From: a virus
Virus record (IMG/VR): IMGVR_UViG_3300034980_000222
Coordinates: 1-34,932 of that record
Reading direction: 5' to 3' (one strand)
Length of the DNA: 34,932 nt
Below the pieces are notes generated by a model that was not told the DNA's origin, did not search any database, and was given only the letters and a program-made list of their open reading frames with translations. Shown piece by piece: positions 19,086 to 27,450 of this stretch. Numbering within the stretch: the stretch's first letter is position 1; each line of letters starts with the position of its first letter. The translations under genes and the position numbers were made by a program.

Positions 19086-19547
19086 ATGCCGAAACGCAGG
19101 AAGCGAACCAATTCCAAAGTGCCAGCGAAGGGGCGATTGCGAGATATGGCCGATCGCCTTTGGTCTAGAGCGGTTCGAGATGACTGGGCCAACCGTTGTG
19201 CGGTCTGCGGTAAGGGAAAGGTCGAAGCACATCACTTGGCGCCCAGGCAATTCGAGGCGACTCGATACAACCTCCTAAATGGAGTGGCATTATGTGCGAG
19301 TTGTCACAAATTCAACCCAGACATCTCGCCACATTTGAACGCATCGGGCTGGATGGATTGGTTGCGGTCTGAGCATCCAATTTTGGCTCAGTGGTATGAA
19401 AACAACCCTCGGCCAGAATTCCATGGGACGAAGAATGCGGCGTACTACGTGGCACATATTCAGCGGCTGCGGCAATACGTCGATGAGGATGACGCGGAAG
19501 AGATCATTGGAATCAGATTCATTACATTTTTAAGGGAAACGCAATAA
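19086..19547 (+). CDS. HNH / NinG-like endonuclease
   Basis: 153 aa. A basic N-terminus precedes an HNH zinc core: CAVC (38-41), VEAHHLAP (47-53), NLLNG (62-66) and CASCH (70-74). The Cys pairs hold zinc and the His/Asn residues are catalytic in HNH nucleases. The layout, with HHL between the two CxxC pairs and a helical C-terminus, also fits the NinG/Rap recombination nuclease. Its place between the exonuclease and csrA suggests a role in processing recombination intermediates. It overlaps csrA by TAATG. Confidence 0.8.
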   Translation: MPKRRKRTNSKVPAKGRLRDMADRLWSRAVRDDWANRCAVCGKGKVEAHHLAPRQFEATRYNLLNGVALCASCHKFNPDISPHLNASGWMDWLRSEHPILAQWYENNPRPEFHGTKNAAYYVAHIQRLRQYVDEDDAEEIIGIRFITFLRETQ

Positions 19548-19738
19548 TGCTCGTTGTATCAAGGAAGAAAAACGAGGTGATTATGCTGGGCGATAATATT
19601 CGGCTGGTAGTGGTGCAAATTAAAGGTGAGAAAGTGCGATTAGGAATTGAGGCGCCGCTTGAGATGCCTGTACATCGCCAGGAGGTTTACGACGCTATTC
19701 AGCGTGACAACGACGACCGGAATACAGATTCCGCTTGA
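19547..19738 (+). CDS. csrA: CsrA/RsmA carbon storage regulator
   Basis: A 63-aa full-length CsrA. MLVVSRKKNEVIMLGDNIRL, KVRLGIEAP and MPVHRQEVYDAI match the family over its whole length. R44 in VHRQEVY, the RNA-binding Arg, is retained, and R6 and R31 are also present. CsrA dimers bind ANGGA motifs at hairpin loops and ribosome sites, usually blocking translation. A copy in a phage can redirect host mRNAs or its own. Three nearby leaders each carry two ANGGA motifs around the start codon (see findings). It starts within the HNH stop (TAATG). Confidence 0.95.
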   Translation: MLVVSRKKNEVIMLGDNIRLVVVQIKGEKVRLGIEAPLEMPVHRQEVYDAIQRDNDDRNTDSA

Positions 19739-19763: not shown

Positions 19764-19798
19764 GTGGGCTCACCACCTTACACGTTAGCAATTCAAGC

Positions 19799-19859
19799 CC
19801 CCCCTGTTTCTATGCCCCGTGTTCGTTGTGGTGACTAAATTCTGGGCGACACAGGGGGG
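19799..19859 (+). terminator. Long-loop hairpin after csrA (element E0)
   Basis: CCCCCCTGT (19799-19807) is perfectly complementary to ACAGGGGGG (19851-19859), and an inner GCCC/GGGC can pair within the loop. There is no U-tract, so it is either a rho-independent-like pause or a structured RNA. An ATGGAGT motif follows at 19870, as in the other leaders, but no gene start follows it. Confidence 0.5.
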
Positions 19860-19878
19860 CACTAATTCAATGGAGTGG

Positions 19879-19906
19879 TTGACATCGATTAGGGCGATGG
19901 TAGATT
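19879..19906 (+). promoter_or_regulatory. Promoter P1
   Basis: TTGACA (19879-19884) and TAGATT (19901-19906) with a 16-base spacer. It resembles P2 and P3, which have TTGACA or TTGACT and TAGACT. Transcription would start near 19912, at the base of a 14-bp stem. Confidence 0.65.
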
Positions 19907-19911
19907 GATTG

Positions 19912-20024
19912 GCACTGGTGACTGGACCTCACCAAAGACCACCCACAAACCCTGTCGCGCAACTCTCGTGCCATCCGCACAATGAGGTCCAGTCACGCGG
20001 CAGGGTTTTTTATGGAGTGACGGA
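19912..20024 (+). ncRNA. Structured attenuator-like leader E1 (interleaved stems)
   Basis: Two long complementarities interleave. GTGACTGGACCTCA (19918-19931) pairs perfectly with 19983-19996. AAACCCTGTCGCG (19947-19959) pairs with 19996-20008 with one G-U. The order A, B, A', B' means a pseudoknot or two exclusive folds. The B stem ends in a T6 tract (20006-20011), like an intrinsic terminator, directly before ATGGAG (20012-20017), the Shine-Dalgarno of the next gene. This is the arrangement of a transcription attenuator or regulatory leader. Confidence 0.68.
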
Positions 20025-20210
20025 ATGATTGCCAGGATGTCTGAATTCAACCGTGATCTTTTCTCGGATGCTGATTTAGCGAGACTTGATTTGATCGGAA
20101 CGACGTTCAAATGGATTCATGAAACGTGGGGGGAAACCGATGCCGCAGCGATGGTGATTGGTGGCCATCTCCTTAGTATCGCGAAGGAAATATGCGAGGC
20201 CTCCGAATGA
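20025..20210 (+). CDS. Small hypothetical protein downstream of leader E1
   Basis: 61 aa with GGAG (20014-20017) seven bases upstream of ATG. SEFNRDLFSDADLARLDLIG and TTFKWIHETWGETDAAAMVI form helices; no motif is recognised. It overlaps the ParB-like gene by ATGA, so the leader probably controls both. It may be a partner of the ParB-like protein. Confidence 0.6.
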   Translation: MIARMSEFNRDLFSDADLARLDLIGTTFKWIHETWGETDAAAMVIGGHLLSIAKEICEASE

Positions 20211-20995
20211 AAACCAAGCCACTGCCCATTGATCTACTCGTGACGGATGCAGACACGCAAAGCAGGCTGTCGATCCACGGTGAGACGGTTGAAGTCTACG
20301 CAGAATTAATCGAGGAGAGCGGGACCGAGTGGCCATTCCCTCCAGTGGACGTATTCCACGACGGCAATCGGTACATGGTGGCAGATGGATTCCACCGAGT
20401 ACTCGGCGCGGCGAATACCAAACGGGCATCGATTCCGTGCATTGTCCACAAGGGGACAGCGACAGACGCACGCATATTCGCGATGACGGCCAACGATTCT
20501 CACGGTCTGCGGATGAGCCGAGCAGACAAGCGGGGATGTGTAGAATGGCTGCTCGACGCTAGCCCGAAGCGTACGCAGGAGCAAATATCAAAACTGGCAG
20601 GAGTCACGACGCGAACCGTCAAGAGAATCGTGGCAGACAGAAAGGTGACATTGTCACCATACCAGGGAGGGGTTAGTAACGATTCAGGAGAGGATGGCCG
20701 AACGGATTCGGACGGCACGGAGCCCACAGAGGAGACCGCTCACCAGCCTGCCGAGGATGGCACGGAATCGGCTGGTGAGGATATTGGAGCGACGAATACC
20801 GAGTGGGAGGACGTGGATGAATCGATTCCAGAGCCCGAAGAGCCATCGAAACCGGATCCCGAAAAGTGCAAGAACCTAGCGAATCAGTATCGTGACAAGC
20901 TCGCACGGGCGATCTGCGATTACCACCAATTGACACCGAATCGGGACGAGCGTGATCGGTTGGTTAAGTTGGTGCAGGGAGTGGATTTATGGTAA
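20207..20995 (+). CDS. ParB/Srx-fold nuclease-like DNA-binding protein
   Basis: 262 aa from ATG 20207 (ATGA overlap). Residues 1-100 are a ParB N-terminal-type domain with VADGFHRVLGA, the DGxHR nucleotide-binding/catalytic box. Next is a helix-turn-helix (TQEQISKLAGVTTRTVKRIV). A long acidic, low-complexity linker (SGEDGRTDSDGTEPTEETAH) leads to a C-terminal helical part (KCKNLANQYRDKLARAICDY). Phage copies of this fold act as DNA-binding regulators or nucleases rather than partition proteins. No ParA is present. Confidence 0.75.
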   Translation: MKTKPLPIDLLVTDADTQSRLSIHGETVEVYAELIEESGTEWPFPPVDVFHDGNRYMVADGFHRVLGAANTKRASIPCIVHKGTATDARIFAMTANDSHGLRMSRADKRGCVEWLLDASPKRTQEQISKLAGVTTRTVKRIVADRKVTLSPYQGGVSNDSGEDGRTDSDGTEPTEETAHQPAEDGTESAGEDIGATNTEWEDVDESIPEPEEPSKPDPEKCKNLANQYRDKLARAICDYHQLTPNRDERDRLVKLVQGVDLW

Positions 20996-22634: not shown

Positions 22635-22862
22635 ATGGAGTGGGACAGCAACGCGGCGTGGAAACGACAGATAGAGCGGACGCTGAATCGCCTCGGCTCG
22701 ATGGTGACGGGCAACCAAAAATTTCAGGCGGATCGAATAGCTGACGTGATTGAGCAGATCGACGAATTGCGGCAGGAATTGAAACGGGTTGCGGATCGTC
22801 AGGACGTTATGGCGGATTGGATTAAGGCGAATATTCCGAAGAAGGAACAGGAGGATGATTGA
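22635..22862 (+). CDS. Small coiled-coil protein
   Basis: 75 aa, strongly helical with heptad spacing: WKRQIERTLNRLGSMVTGNQ, then IADVIEQIDELRQELKRVAD. The start lacks a good Shine-Dalgarno. A 62-base gap upstream contains a GGAATCGATTCC palindrome. A remnant copy of its 3' end lies at 23282-23368. Function unknown. Confidence 0.6.
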   Translation: MEWDSNAAWKRQIERTLNRLGSMVTGNQKFQADRIADVIEQIDELRQELKRVADRQDVMADWIKANIPKKEQEDD

Positions 22863-23285
22863 ATGGAGATGGGGGAAACTCGGTGGATTAAATTAGCTAG
22901 TCGAGTTGTCAATGGTGAGTCAATGGTGGATATAGCTGCGGGTGAAAAGTGTGGAACCACGACGGTGCGACAGATGGTTCTCAAGGCATTCCGCGCCAAG
23001 AATCCGATGCTATATGAATCGTTGAAGCAGAGAATGAAGGGAGGATGCTATAGGGAGCCTTCGATGAAATTGCTAGTCGAACATGCTGTATTTTTTGGCA
23101 TAGGCCCGTCAGTTAAAAGTAGATCCCCAAAGGATAACCGGTTCACCGAGTGCGTATTTACTGCGATGGACGCGGTGCTTCCGTTGAGGGAGCACCATAA
23201 AGACGATACGGCAAATATTATCTCGATATTGCAGCGGATGATAATCAACCAAAACAAGCTGTTGCAGGCTGATTCCAGAAATTGA
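22863..23285 (+). CDS. Hypothetical HTH-containing protein
   Basis: 140 aa starting one base after the previous stop. SRVVNGESMVDIAAGEKCGT followed by TTVRQMVLKAFRAKNP reads like a helix-turn-helix with a recognition helix (TTTVRQMVLKAF). The rest is polar with a helical C-terminus (DTANIISILQRMIINQNKLL). It may be a phage transcriptional regulator. No family recognised. Its 3' end runs into the duplicated fragment. Confidence 0.6.
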   Translation: MEMGETRWIKLASRVVNGESMVDIAAGEKCGTTTVRQMVLKAFRAKNPMLYESLKQRMKGGCYREPSMKLLVEHAVFFGIGPSVKSRSPKDNRFTECVFTAMDAVLPLREHHKDDTANIISILQRMIINQNKLLQADSRN

Positions 23286-23368
23286 AACGGGTTGCGGATC
23301 GACAGGACAAGATAGCGGAATTTATTCGAGCGAATATTCCAAAGAGTTGTGGTGAGTCGGGGGAGTGA
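23282..23368 (+). pseudogene. Remnant copy of the 22635 gene 3' end
   Basis: This stretch encodes LKRVADRQDKIAEFIRANIP, matching LKRVADRQDVMADWIKANIP at the end of the 22635 gene, with high nucleotide identity (the first 20 bases are identical). It has no start and lies in a frame that overlaps the previous stop, so it is a truncated duplicate. Confidence 0.7.
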
Positions 23369-23440
23369 ATGAGGCTTTTGTTTGTTTGCCTGATCGGTTT
23401 GGAATCGTGCGGGTTCTTCGAGTTCACTCCCCTTTTTTTT
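23360..23440 (+). terminator. Intrinsic terminator with long loop
   Basis: GGGGAGTGAA (23360-23369) pairs perfectly with TTCACTCCCC (23423-23432), followed by T8 (23433-23440). The loop of about 53 bases is long for a simple terminator, but the stem and U-tract are strong. It would end transcripts just before promoter P2. Confidence 0.7.
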
Positions 23441-23455
23441 AACCCGGTGCCGTTG

Positions 23456-23485
23456 TTGACACCGGGCGATTCCAGAGGTTAGACT
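23456..23485 (+). promoter_or_regulatory. Promoter P2
   Basis: TTGACA (23456-23461), an 18-base spacer and TAGACT (23480-23485). The context GTTGTTGAC and the GATTC in the spacer are shared with P3, showing a duplicated promoter-leader unit. Confidence 0.72.
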
Positions 23486-23490
23486 TTTCT

Positions 23491-23647
23491 AATCGGGAGT
23501 TGAACGCCCCGAATTCACCCAGAGCGATATCATGACTACAATCAAAACATCGGCACGCATCCCCTTCGAGTATCGCTCCTCGAATATGCTCCGATCATTG
23601 CCCCGGTCAACCGTTCAGTTGGCGCGGGGTTTTTTTATGGAGTAATC
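23491..23647 (+). ncRNA. Structured attenuator-like leader E2
   Basis: Four parts are visible: a 5' hairpin (TCGGG 23493-23497 / CCCGA 23508-23512); a central stem GAGCGATA (23522-23529) / TATCGCTC (23571-23578); CCGAT (23591-23595), able to pair with ATCGG (23549-23553) in the central loop; and a terminator hairpin CCCCG (23601-23605) / CGGGG (23625-23629) with inner CAAC/GTTG and a T7 tract (23630-23636). The six-base terminator loop CGTTCA is complementary to TGAACG in the 5' hairpin loop. ATGGAG, the ribosome site, follows the U-tract. Confidence 0.72.
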
Positions 23648-24124
23648 ATGGATGTAGCTAAGGTGAGAATCAAATGGGCCGATAAGGAATCCGCGGTCAG
23701 GGAATTAGAACGCAACGGGAAAGTTGATCCGGCTGACCTGATTCAAGCTGCGAGGAATCCAGATCATCCCTGTCACTGTGATTTCACATGGGACATCGAG
23801 GAAGCGGCGAATGAGCGTTGGCGGGACCAAGCACGCAAGATCATTCGCACATGTAAATTCGAGGTGATCACAACAGAGATAACCGCATCAACGGTGCGGT
23901 ATGTCGAATCGCCAACCGATCAGGGAATGTTTGCCAGTCTGCCAAAGATGCGAGGCGTGCAGAATACGTCGTCGGTAATGGCGAAGGAATTAGGAATGCT
24001 TCACGGGAATGCGTCGAGAGTCTACGGAATCGCTCTGGCAAAGCAGGGGATCATTGGTGCCGAATTGGTTTCGTTGCTGCAATCGATTCGGGATCAGATT
24101 GGGTCGATTAAGGATAGTGTCTAG
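23648..24124 (+). CDS. Phage protein of the PxHxxFxWDxxxAA family, function unknown
   Basis: 158 aa. VDPADLIQAARNPDHPCHCDFTWDIEEAANERWRDQARKIIR is a pattern I associate with a widespread phage protein family (LxxAARDPxxPLHxxFxWDDxxAAExxRxxQAR), often encoded near recombination genes and next to relatives of the 24403 gene. The rest is helical with a Pro-rich turn. Leader E2 lies directly upstream, with ATGGAG eleven bases before the start codon. Confidence 0.7.
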   Translation: MDVAKVRIKWADKESAVRELERNGKVDPADLIQAARNPDHPCHCDFTWDIEEAANERWRDQARKIIRTCKFEVITTEITASTVRYVESPTDQGMFASLPKMRGVQNTSSVMAKELGMLHGNASRVYGIALAKQGIIGAELVSLLQSIRDQIGSIKDSV

Positions 24125-24310
24125 GCTGGGTTGGGAGTGGTATGGATCGATATAGCCGGGCGAGGCGGTCAAGGCGAGGCGTGTTGCGGTCTGGTGAGGT
24201 GCGGTATGGCGGGGCTGTCACGGTATGGCGGGGCGGGGTCAGGTCGGGAATGGATAGGCGGTCGTGGCAGGCTGGGTAGGGTCGGGCCGGGTGTGGCGAG
24301 GTTTGGCTGT
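24125..24310 (+). repeat. G-rich degenerate repeat tract 1 (GGC/GGT-rich)
   Basis: About 185 non-coding bases with many GG-GGGG runs separated by 2-5 bases, and strong G-over-C bias. Recurring words include GGCGAGGCGGTC, GGCGGGGC and GGTGCGG. The open frame 24131-24400 is an artefact of this composition. A related tract follows the next gene. Confidence 0.75.
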
Positions 24311-24365
24311 CAAAAGAGTTTTTGTTTTTTGATTCGGGCGTGTGTCCCGAGTCTCCTACGTAACA

Positions 24366-24385
24366 GGGAACGACATAAAGTTCCC
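24366..24385 (+). promoter_or_regulatory. Hairpin before the Shine-Dalgarno of the 24403 gene
   Basis: GGGAAC (24366-24371) and GTTCCC (24380-24385) form a 6-bp stem with an 8-base loop. It ends five bases before AGGAG (24391-24395). It may tune translation; there is no U-tract. Confidence 0.45.
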
Positions 24386-24402
24386 ACACAAGGAGAGTAA
24401 CG

Positions 24403-25185
24403 ATGGCGAAAGTAACGATGGACAAGGCGATTGAAGTAGAACCCCTACGGAGTAAAAGAATCACGGTATGGCTAAAAGGCGAGACACCGTTGATTTGTAA
24501 CCGGATGGCAGGAAAGGCAATGCGTGAATTACTCATGCCCAAAGGCCGAAAGAATGCTGCAGAGAAAGCACAATCCCTCAAGCATGATCCGATCAGTGAA
24601 TTCCGAAACTCAATGAGCATGCAGACGGGGGACGATTGCAATACGCGACTGGTCTTTCCATCGCCAGCGATCAAAGGGGCAATGGCCACGGCTGGACTGG
24701 AGACCAAAGGAACCACTAAGGCTCAGATTGGCCGACTGGTTTGGGTAGAGGGTTATTCATGTGAGTTGTACGGTGTCCCAAAGGTCTTTATGGCGATCGT
24801 GCGGTCGGCTGACATGAATCGGACTCCAGACGTTCGCACGCGGGCGATGCTGATGGAGTGGTGCCTCCAGGTCACGATATCATTCGTAACCCCTCAGATG
24901 TCCGAGCAGTCGATTATGCAACTGCTTTCCAATGGAGGTATCATCGTCGGAATCGGTGACTTTCGACAGGAAAAAGGAAAAGGAAACTTCGGTCAGTTCT
25001 CGGTTTCGACTGAGGCGAAGTGCAAGGACATCATTAAAAATGGTGGTCTGATTCACCAGGACGAGGCACTTGATAATCCTGAGTGCGTCGATGCTGACAC
25101 TGAAGAATTGCTGGCATGGTTCCAGTCGGAAGTTGAAGTCCGAGGGAAATCGGAGCTATTGCAACCGACTAACGGCAAAGCCTAA
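24403..25185 (+). CDS. Phage protein with glycine-rich RAMP-like motif, function unknown
   Basis: 260 aa with a good AGGAGAG ribosome site. GETPLICNRMAGKAMRELLM near the N-terminus is followed by DPISEFRNSMS and LVFPSPAIKGAMATAGLETK. Near the C-terminus is IIVGIGDFRQEKGKGNFGQF. These blocks (TPLxxxR, FPxxAxKxA, GxGxFRxxKGxGxFG) define a phage family I have seen beside relatives of the 23648 gene. The glycine-rich GIGDFRxxKGxG loop recalls the RAMP/Cas7-type RNA-recognition fold, but this is only a motif resemblance. It sits between two G-rich repeat tracts. Confidence 0.7.
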   Translation: MAKVTMDKAIEVEPLRSKRITVWLKGETPLICNRMAGKAMRELLMPKGRKNAAEKAQSLKHDPISEFRNSMSMQTGDDCNTRLVFPSPAIKGAMATAGLETKGTTKAQIGRLVWVEGYSCELYGVPKVFMAIVRSADMNRTPDVRTRAMLMEWCLQVTISFVTPQMSEQSIMQLLSNGGIIVGIGDFRQEKGKGNFGQFSVSTEAKCKDIIKNGGLIHQDEALDNPECVDADTEELLAWFQSEVEVRGKSELLQPTNGKA

Positions 25186-25425
25186 TCGATAGTGTCACGG
25201 CGAGGCGGTCTTGGTTAGGTCGGGCTAGGCACGGCGAGGCGGGGCTGGGTGAGGTTTGGCGGTCGAGGCATGAATAGGCGGGTCCAGGTGCGGCAGGGTC
25301 GGGCAGGGCGGTCCGATTTACGGCACGGCTGGGCTAGGTGCGGCAGTCAAGGCGGTCGTGCCAGGATCAGGCGAGGTGCGGTGAGGTTCGGCGTGGCGGG
25401 GTCATGGTCCGGTCCGGTGTGGTTG
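25186..25425 (+). repeat. G-rich degenerate repeat tract 2
   Basis: About 240 non-coding bases with the same style as tract 1: GGCGAGGCGGTC, GGTCGGGC, GGTGCGGCAG and GGCGGGGC words at short spacing. Strong G-over-C bias on the + strand makes it a candidate for G-quadruplexes or R-loops. It runs into promoter P3. The frame 25249-25452 is a composition artefact. Confidence 0.75.
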
Positions 25426-25455
25426 TTGACTCAGGACGATTCTAGATGCTAGACT
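25426..25455 (+). promoter_or_regulatory. Promoter P3
   Basis: TTGACT (25426-25431), an 18-base spacer and TAGACT (25450-25455). The GTTGTTGAC context and a CGATTC in the spacer match P2. Confidence 0.72.
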
Positions 25456-25461
25456 TTGCTG

Positions 25462-25625
25462 ATTGGGTTTGACTTCCCCTCTTGCAACAGAGTGAGAACA
25501 TGAATCACAATTCAAACATCGGTACGCATCGCTCGACGGTCTCACTCCCGTTGACTGCTCCGATCATCGCCCCGGTCATGTTTAGTCAACATGGCGCGGG
25601 GTCTTTTCATGGAGTTTGAAACGGC
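25462..25625 (+). ncRNA. Structured attenuator-like leader E3
   Basis: It has the same plan as E2: 5' hairpin GGG/CCC (25465-25478); central stem GAGTGAGA (25490-25497) / TCTCACTC (25540-25547); ATCGG (25518-25522) and CCGAT (25560-25564); terminator CCCCG (25570-25574) / CGGGG (25597-25601) with inner CATGTT/AACATG, then TCTTTT. TTGACT in the 5' loop (25469-25474) is complementary to AGTCAA at the terminator loop (25584-25589). Stem sequences differ from E2 but keep pairing. ATGGAG at 25609-25614 is the ribosome site. Confidence 0.74.
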
Positions 25626-26543
25626 ATGGAGCTAATCACAAAGTCATTTGCCGATCAGTGCATTGCGTTTCCAGCGAGGGTGGATTCTGTGCTTGCTGAA
25701 GTCACGACAGTCGCAGGCGCCAAAGACCGACTAGGCAAGGCGTCAGCTATGCAGCATTACGCTGACCGACTGAAGGCTGGAATTGAGATACAAGCACCGA
25801 TTGCGGTTGGCGTTTTGAAGATCAAGACGAAGCTGGGTGAGTTGATGCCAGCTGAAAAGGGCGGACGCGGAAATAAAGCCCCCAAGCTGCTTGGGGGCTT
25901 TTCTGAGCCAACGATTACGGCCTACCGCAAGATGGCAGCCAACGCGGAAAAGCTGGACGATTACGCCGATGCGACTGATGACGTACCGACGCAAGGTGAA
26001 TTCCTGAAGTACATCGCCAACGGTAGCATCATCGCGACCAAGCACGGTAACGGTGTCGTCGATTGGTACACTCCCGAGAAGTACATCGATGCAGTGCGAA
26101 AAGTGCTAGGAGAAATCGACCTCGATCCAGCCACGTCAAAGTGTGCACAGGACATCATCAAGGCGACGACACACTACACGGAAGCCGATGACGGACTATC
26201 GAAGGAATGGGCCGGGCGAGTGTATTTGAATCCACCGTTTAAGATGCCGGACGTCCAGTCGTTTGTTTACAAGCTTTGCGATTCCATCGAATCCAAGGCA
26301 GTAAGCCAAGCCATCATGCTGACCAACAACAACGCCGATACGAAGTGGTTTCATCGTGCCGCCAGTTTGAGCCAAGGCGTCTGCTTCACTGCAGGACGCA
26401 TTTCCTTCTACAACGCTGCTGGGGATCAATCATCCCCGACTAATGGGCAATCGTTTTGCTACTTCGGCAAGAGGCAGGCGGCGTTTGCTCGCGAATTCAG
26501 CAAGTTGGGAGTCGTCTTGTGTCCGACATCAAAGACAAAATAA
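25626..26543 (+). CDS. Phage Dam-type N6-adenine methyltransferase with N-terminal accessory domain
   Basis: 305 aa. The C-terminal part has the pattern of phage DNA N-6-adenine methyltransferases: DWYTPEKYIDAVRKVLGEIDLDPATS, then YLNPPFKMPDVQSFVYKL (catalytic NPPF), and CFTAGRISFYNAAGDQSSPT. Residues 1-110 are a helical accessory domain (AKDRLGKASAMQHYADRLKA, PIAVGVLKIKTKLGELMPAE) of the sort found beside ParB-like phage proteins. Leader E3 precedes it. An intrinsic-terminator-like hairpin lies inside the gene at 25875-25902, between the two parts. The last 25 bases overlap the next gene. Confidence 0.87.
   Translation: MELITKSFADQCIAFPARVDSVLAEVTTVAGAKDRLGKASAMQHYADRLKAGIEIQAPIAVGVLKIKTKLGELMPAEKGGRGNKAPKLLGGFSEPTITAYRKMAANAEKLDDYADATDDVPTQGEFLKYIANGSIIATKHGNGVVDWYTPEKYIDAVRKVLGEIDLDPATSKCAQDIIKATTHYTEADDGLSKEWAGRVYLNPPFKMPDVQSFVYKLCDSIESKAVSQAIMLTNNNADTKWFHRAASLSQGVCFTAGRISFYNAAGDQSSPTNGQSFCYFGKRQAAFAREFSKLGVVLCPTSKTK
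25875..25902 (+). terminator. Terminator-like hairpin inside the Dam gene
   Basis: AAAGCCCCCAAG (25875-25886) and CTTGGGGGCTTT (25890-25901) form a perfect 12-bp stem with a 3-base loop and a short T run. It encodes KAPKLLGGF in the linker between the N-terminal domain and the methyltransferase domain. Confidence 0.6.
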
Positions 26544-27121: not shown

Positions 27122-27186
27122 CAGCCCCTGATGGCAAAACAGGAACGTGTGCGGCTGCCCGCCTGGATCTGAGGATCGAATAGGGT

Positions 27187-27450
27187 GTGTCCAAATCCGG
27201 TATCTTCGGGACGTATGAACTCGACTCAATTGGAGTTGGCCCGAAGACGGCGGCGAATCGATTCGTCGTTAATTCACCCGGTGCCGAGGAGCCATTGGGT
27301 TGGCTGATTGCAGGGCTTTGTGCTGCGGAGCGGGTGGGGGGAGTTGCGCAACGAGGTTGCTTCAATACAGACAAAAACGGTTGGCCCCTAGTTACCTGGC
27401 CGGCATCGATTCCAGTCCATGGCTTTCCCTGCCTGCCGAAAAACCTTTAG
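27187..27450 (+). CDS. Doubtful open frame in an otherwise gene-free stretch
   Basis: 87 aa from GTG 27187, preceded by AGGA about 13 bases upstream. The translation (GWLIAGLCAAERVGGVAQRG) looks unlike the neighbouring proteins and no domain is recognised. An internal ATG at 27215 in another frame gives only about 30 aa with an Arg-rich run. The 340 bases from 27122 to 27461 may instead be non-coding; no promoter or terminator is evident there. Confidence 0.25.
   Translation: MSKSGIFGTYELDSIGVGPKTAANRFVVNSPGAEEPLGWLIAGLCAAERVGGVAQRGCFNTDKNGWPLVTWPASIPVHGFPCLPKNL

Follow-up and report, generated by a model that had tools for sequence, protein, structure and literature searches.

The window, by which we mean the whole stretch of 34,932 bases analysed here, is the linear virus record IMGVR_UViG_3300034980_000222, and it contains genes for a large terminase, an exonuclease, a helicase, a ParB-like protein, methyltransferases and CsrA. 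Two of its plus-strand genes, one encoding a protein of 158 amino acids (P0001, 23648..24124, phrog_15946, function not assigned) and the other a Dam-type DNA N6-adenine methyltransferase (25626..26543; Pfam PF05869, E 2.3e-15), are each preceded on the same strand by a module of about 190 bases, which consists of a promoter, a folded RNA, a terminator and a ribosome site and is present twice in this phage. Module E2 spans 23456..23642, as delimited by its similarity to a further copy (E5, see below) and by the alignment of E2 with E3; module E3 spans 25426..25614, as delimited by similarity to E5 over 25426-25615. An earlier sequence-only reading had paired these two elements, and every E2 and E3 string it quoted is present in the window at the position given for it. 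The common promoter and layout which it proposed are likewise confirmed: E2 and E3 can be aligned from the -35 box through ATGGAGT.

The E2 promoter (TTGACA-18-TAGACT, 23456..23485), common to E3 and E5, matches the consensus at 10 of 12 positions; in E3 (TTGACT-18-TAGACT, 25426..25455) the match is 9 of 12, with a TG ahead of the -10 box. The predicted folds place a 5' hairpin at 23493..23512 in E2 (TCGGG/CCCGA) and at 25465..25478 in E3 (GGG/CCC), followed by a core (23522..23584 and 25490..25554, respectively) and by a predicted intrinsic terminator. The terminator of E2 (23600..23636) carries the loop CGTTCA (23612-23617) and a U-tract of 7, that of E3 (25569..25607) the loop AGTCAA (25584-25589) and a U-tract broken by one C, while the stem GCCCCG/CGGGGT is kept in all four known copies. 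The AUGGAG ribosome sites (23637..23642 and 25609..25614) belong to the conserved unit. The earlier reading had drawn attention to the contact between U-tract and AUGGAG; terminators abutting ribosome sites are common in other phages without such leaders, so that this feature alone means little.

Upstream of E2, the preceding operon ends in a terminator-like hairpin on the plus strand (23359..23440; -31.3 kcal/mol, z -4.3) with eight T after it. A 70-nt direct repeat (22773-22842 versus 23276-23345, 81% identical) forms the 3' end of the gene at 22635-22862 and has its second copy just before this hairpin. The palindrome CCCGGTG/CACCGGG (23443-23466) flanks and overlaps the E2 -35 box and is a candidate operator; no palindrome of this kind was seen at E3.

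Copies and distribution of the module

The conserved block GCTCCGATCAT-N-GCCCCGGTCA is found in the window at 23588 and 25557 only, where shuffles predict none. Scanning IMG/VR with it yielded one true relative, IMGVR_UViG_3300037808_000806 (L004, or L027 when reversed), the contig of a sister phage whose helicase and methyltransferase are 97% and 92% identical to those of the window. Two more copies lie on its minus strand, E4 (L004:3395-3240) and E5 (L004:2223-2072), and the four can be sorted into type A (E2 and E5) and type B (E3 and E4). DNA similarity between E2 and E5 (85% identity) starts at the -35 hexamer and stops at the ribosome site, with nothing in common outside, and the similarity between E3 and E5 has the same sharp ends; being limited in this way, it defines the unit as promoter, leader, terminator and ribosome site. 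The genes behind the copies differ: P0001 follows E2, the Dam-type methyltransferase follows E3, a phrog_5931 protein follows E4, and E5 stands before an uncharacterized protein and then the methyltransferase. The modules thus precede unrelated genes although the phages are 90-97% identical around them. In the most likely reading, E2-E5 represent a single phage expression module that can be moved about, with one exchangeable gene or short operon under the control of each copy.

Beyond these two phages the searches returned little. The conserved-block pattern matched in IMG/VR, besides L004, just two further records (L003 and L005), both without the module, and among GTDB genomes it gave 20 matches, at none of which the remainder of the module is present. 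A gapped-pattern match (L026) was discarded, as the terminator is absent from it. The terminator-to-ribosome-site pattern matched 84 stretches in IMG/VR, of which those inspected, except for L004, are ordinary phage terminators, and the best other model score among these stretches was 27 bits, whereas the real copies score about 160. Searching about 1,090 genomes with the model R1, drawn from the phyla of a planctomycete MAG (392), a Vicinamibacteria MAG (297) and a Novosphingobium MAG (398), gave one match (E 0.002 per genome). This is another kind of leader, which has hardly more than a terminator in common with the module and is roughly what chance would give at that size. The element was not found in phage DNA searched in distant mode or in plasmid DNA, and searches with neighbouring proteins in IMG/VR returned only L027, L028 and one distant relative, L117. 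It should be noted that exact-pattern scans of IMG/VR miss diverged copies and that the genome searches were run under strict filters. The planctomycete connection suggested earlier was not borne out: the model search gave no copy in the 392 genomes of that phylum, and the closest helicases in the sample are just 30-32% identical, leaving a planctomycete host without support.

The statement that no named RNA family has this plan agrees with the Rfam comparison. Rfam 15 at gathering scores gave no match in the window, L004, L028 or L032, and a permissive search of 23430-25650 gave chance matches only, all outside the elements. Whether one should speak of an RNA class is another matter: further homologues with covariation do exist, but so far these amount to four copies in two sister phages. 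E2-E5 look like an undescribed family of structured leaders with a very narrow known distribution.

Folding of the core and proposed contact between the loops

Covariation was examined in the alignment of the four copies (A4), which are related in pairs, so that the following counts are not independent events. The full structure is paired in 93% of cells on A4, compared with 87% after shuffling and 36-47% when the pairing partners are slid; the covariation score is 0.274, compared with 0.155 +/- 0.027 for shuffled and at most 0.10 for partner-slid alignments. Fifteen cells are changed on both sides, where shuffles give 7.1 +/- 1.6 and none of 500 reaches 15. The proposal, made from E2 and E3, that the stems change their letters and yet keep pairing was therefore upheld on copies which had not been seen at the time (E4 and E5). 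Folding energy taken alone is unremarkable for E2 and E4 (z -1.6 and -0.5).

Helix a exists in three versions, GAGCGATA/TATCGCTC in E2 (23522-23529/23571-23578), GAGTGAGA/TCTCACTC in E3 (25490-25497/25540-25547) and E4, and GAGCAAGGA/TCCTTGCTC in E5; these are 8, 8 and 9 bp long, both strands being one base longer in E5, and each is fully self-complementary, those of E2 and E3 as perfect inverted repeats. Helix b (23565-23570/23579-23584 in E2, 25533-25539/25548-25554 in E3) reads either TTCGAG/CTCGAA or TCGACGG/CCGTTGA, with five double-changed pairs, and over the four copies both helices of the E2 core are 100% paired. The single central stem of the earlier reading is a perfect inverted repeat indeed, but its 3' strand exactly coincides with the loop of helix b, a second covarying helix. 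In each version this loop is fully complementary to the upstream strand of its own copy, and can pair over 3-4 nt only with the strands of the other versions. As helices a and b have no nucleotide in common, the arrangement points to a pseudoknot over a plain switch. An 8-9-nt loop paired along its full length would, in our judgement, be sterically tight, and folds forced into helix a or helix b lie only 2-6 kcal/mol apart, so that partial mutual exclusion is possible; the core may form a pseudoknot or else consist of two folds which compete and are close in energy. The pairing ATCGG/CCGAT (helix c; 23549-23553/23591-23595 in E2, 25518-25522/25560-25564 in E3), also noted previously, appears in the minimum-energy fold, but it is invariant and hence gives no covariation evidence either way.

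The proposed contact between the loop of the 5' hairpin and that of the terminator is kept in three letterings: TGAACG/CGTTCA in E2 (5' loop segment 23501-23506), TTGACT/AGTCAA in E3 (25469-25474) and TGACA/TGTCA in E4 and E5, the first two being perfect inverted repeats. When only the loops are compared with random loops, the p values for E2-E4 are 0.002, 0.002 and 0.009 (Fisher 6e-6), an optimistic result, since the loop boundaries were set after the pairs had been seen. A wider test, of the first 32 nt against the entire terminator interior, gives 0.06, 0.05 and 0.25, which is weak for each element. In E3, moreover, the terminator-loop segment AGTCAAC is also complementary over 7 nt to the nearer GTTGACT (25550-25556), a competitor for the loop-loop contact. 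The pairing of the loops is thus moderately supported by sequence, short of being established, and makes a weaker claim than the covariation of the core. As the predicted contact leaves the base stem of the terminator intact, its effect on termination is not obvious.

Proposed conditional termination and competing explanations

Judged from these comparisons, the module is very probably a real, hitherto undescribed regulatory leader RNA. As to how it would act, we give about even credence to the modules being cis-acting, promoter-linked conditional terminators, i.e. attenuators. A sigma70-type promoter would then produce a structured leader of about 150 nt, followed by an intrinsic terminator, a ribosome site and one accessory gene or a short operon. 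Folding of the leader would take place during synthesis: the 5' hairpin forming first, the central domain second, with its 8-9-nt hairpin loop pairing with the upstream strand (as a pseudoknot or in bistable folds), and the terminator third, its loop matching that of the 5' hairpin; the nascent fold would govern the amount of polymerase reading through into the following gene. Termination, regulated read-through and the loop contact as a switch are what we infer in this scheme. Its trigger might be a phage or host protein acting on the nascent RNA or the polymerase, the translation of a short ORF, or the phage CsrA.

The promoter scan found no promoter-like site between the E2 terminator and the gene at 23648, and since the upstream operon is closed by a terminator-like hairpin, this gene needs read-through for its expression from the module; together with the ribosome site lying within the conserved unit, this favours a conditional terminator acting in cis. 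As in attenuators generally, the leader lies between promoter and gene, an intrinsic terminator precedes the ribosome site, and there is alternative or tertiary pairing with covariation (the double changes of helices a and b). In having a promoter, an alternative or pseudoknotted leader and a terminator just before the ribosome site, the E modules resemble the 5'-leader attenuators of the riboswitch, T-box and protein types. Unlike these, they show neither a known aptamer nor a T-box or a protein-binding motif, they precede unrelated phage genes, and their terminator loop matches the loop of the 5' hairpin. CsrA may be the regulator, given that the phage encodes it (19547-19738; Pfam E 8e-23) and that the CsrA-like motif AUGGA follows the U-tract of E2, E3 and a third leader, E1 (described below); AUGGAG, however, is also a plain ribosome site.

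A leader AUG stands right after helix a, and in each of the four copies its frame stays open across the terminator as far as the following gene (37 codons in E2, 23532..23645, ending ATGGAG-TAA; 39 codons in E3, 25500..25619); in E5 the frame is fused to the next gene. Types A and B would encode different peptides, and a conserved leader peptide was discarded, as indels shift the frame between the types as well as between E2 and E5. We regard these frames as possible leader ORFs, which ribosomes may translate. The same frameshifts argue against chance or a short conserved peptide rather than an RNA as the origin of the pattern. E3 and E4 do have one open frame with a common peptide, and the folding energies of E2 and E4 are ordinary, but the double changes in paired columns exceed those of all 500 shuffles, and we hold this explanation to be extremely improbable.

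The main rival, in our opinion unlikely, is a dual-function RNA like IsrK, where the promoter would chiefly yield a terminated RNA (about 150 nt) with a function in trans, while a smaller share of transcripts would read through and serve as messenger, a short upstream ORF coupled to the downstream gene aiding its expression. A short RNA that activates its read-through messenger in trans is what characterises this type. Each E module is a complete promoter-RNA-terminator unit, as the rival would have it, and the layout, compared by description, is alike: a phage promoter, a structured RNA with a terminator, and read-through into a gene. The frame after helix a, with its unconserved peptide and the in-frame fusion in E5, resembles what is described for orf45 of IsrK, from the Salmonella prophage Gifsy-1: conservation in letters rather than peptide, and coupling to the gene that follows (PMC4825925). 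In IsrK, however, the short ORF comes after the terminator, whereas that of the E modules passes through it, and the E modules are present in several copies per phage. No trans target has been identified, the copies in the window have different loops and hence would not cross-pair, and the conserved unit includes a ribosome site, for which an sRNA by itself would have no use.

Two further explanations appear to us improbable, to a similar degree. By the first, the modules would be RNA antiterminators like the put RNAs of phage HK022, in which the structured RNA binds the beta' zinc-binding domain of its own polymerase and suppresses the terminators downstream, both adjacent and later ones. The two similar promoter-proximal copies with compensating stem changes and terminators ahead recall, by description, putL and putR, two related RNAs of about 70 nt with two stem-loops each, located past early promoters (PMC9378689). 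Put, though, has no terminator of its own, the E elements with their pseudoknotted core and terminator are about twice as long (about 150 nt, outside the size of put), and a match in Rfam is absent. The other explanation dispenses with RNA switching: a plain portable expression cassette, in which promoter, sturdy 5' leader and leaky terminator would tune or insulate newly acquired genes. It would suit modules standing before different genes in closely related phages, and junctions of terminator and ribosome site as frequent as they are in phages, but it does not account for the compensating changes that preserve helix a, helix b and the pairing of the loops. Type III toxin-antitoxin systems of the ToxIN/CptIN kind (PMC5086642) likewise combine a promoter, a pseudoknotted RNA, a Rho-independent terminator and a downstream gene; they were rejected here, because the E elements lack tandem repeats and are followed by a Dam methyltransferase or uncharacterized, unrelated phage families rather than a ToxN-like endoribonuclease or another toxin.

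Within the conditional-terminator reading, a more specific proposal can be put forward tentatively: the promoter-proximal hairpin and the pseudoknotted core would dock on the terminator loop and set read-through, the module being a mobile cassette and a new cis-regulatory class, with E1, and perhaps E0 (see below), working likewise. If this were true, phages would possess movable regulatory cassettes, built on structured RNA, for their accessory genes, in which termination is set by contact of the first hairpin with the terminator loop instead of a classic antiterminator, and there would be a handle on the immediate control of newly acquired phage genes. The module would then also offer a small RNA part that terminates itself, with natural compensatory mutants at hand in its three letterings.

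Leaders E1 and E0 and further intergenic sequences

E1 (19879..20017, plus strand) is a leader of the same plan in unrelated letters, with a promoter, a 5' hairpin (19916-19934, loop CTGGACC), a terminator, a U-tract and AUGGAG at 20012-20017; it contains a perfect complement of 14 nt (19918-19931/19983-19996), the 3' part of which lies inside the terminator. Against the covariance model it scores 15.8 bits only, which is chance level. As E1 repeats the plan, we count it in support of the conditional-terminator reading. E0 (19764..19875, plus strand) is a GC-rich hairpin leader directly after csrA, with AUGGAG at 19870 and no U-tract. Its short complement between 5' part and loop, TCACCAC/GTGGTGA, is statistically weak and can still pair, using G-U pairs, in the diverged copy of L027. 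It seems from these comparisons that the phage places such leaders ahead of exchangeable genes. A replacement hot spot (19863-20679) extends from E0 to the conserved 3' part of the ParB-like gene; it differs among the window, L027 and L028/L032, with flanks 90-96% identical.

Other intergenic sequences deserve mention. On either side of the gene at 24403 lie G-rich, strand-skewed degenerate arrays (24124-24320, with 99 G and 30 C, and 25186-25425, with 115 G and 49 C) composed of words such as GGCGG, AGGCG, GCGGT and CGGTC; according to TRF they are not tandem repeats, and they may be recombination (Chi-like) or packaging signals. Finally, the 76-bp intergenic piece at 27123-27198 is 97% identical to L027:7050-7125, which sits just upstream of E5, while its counterpart in the window stands after another gene; by its sequence it would be another intergenic piece that has moved.
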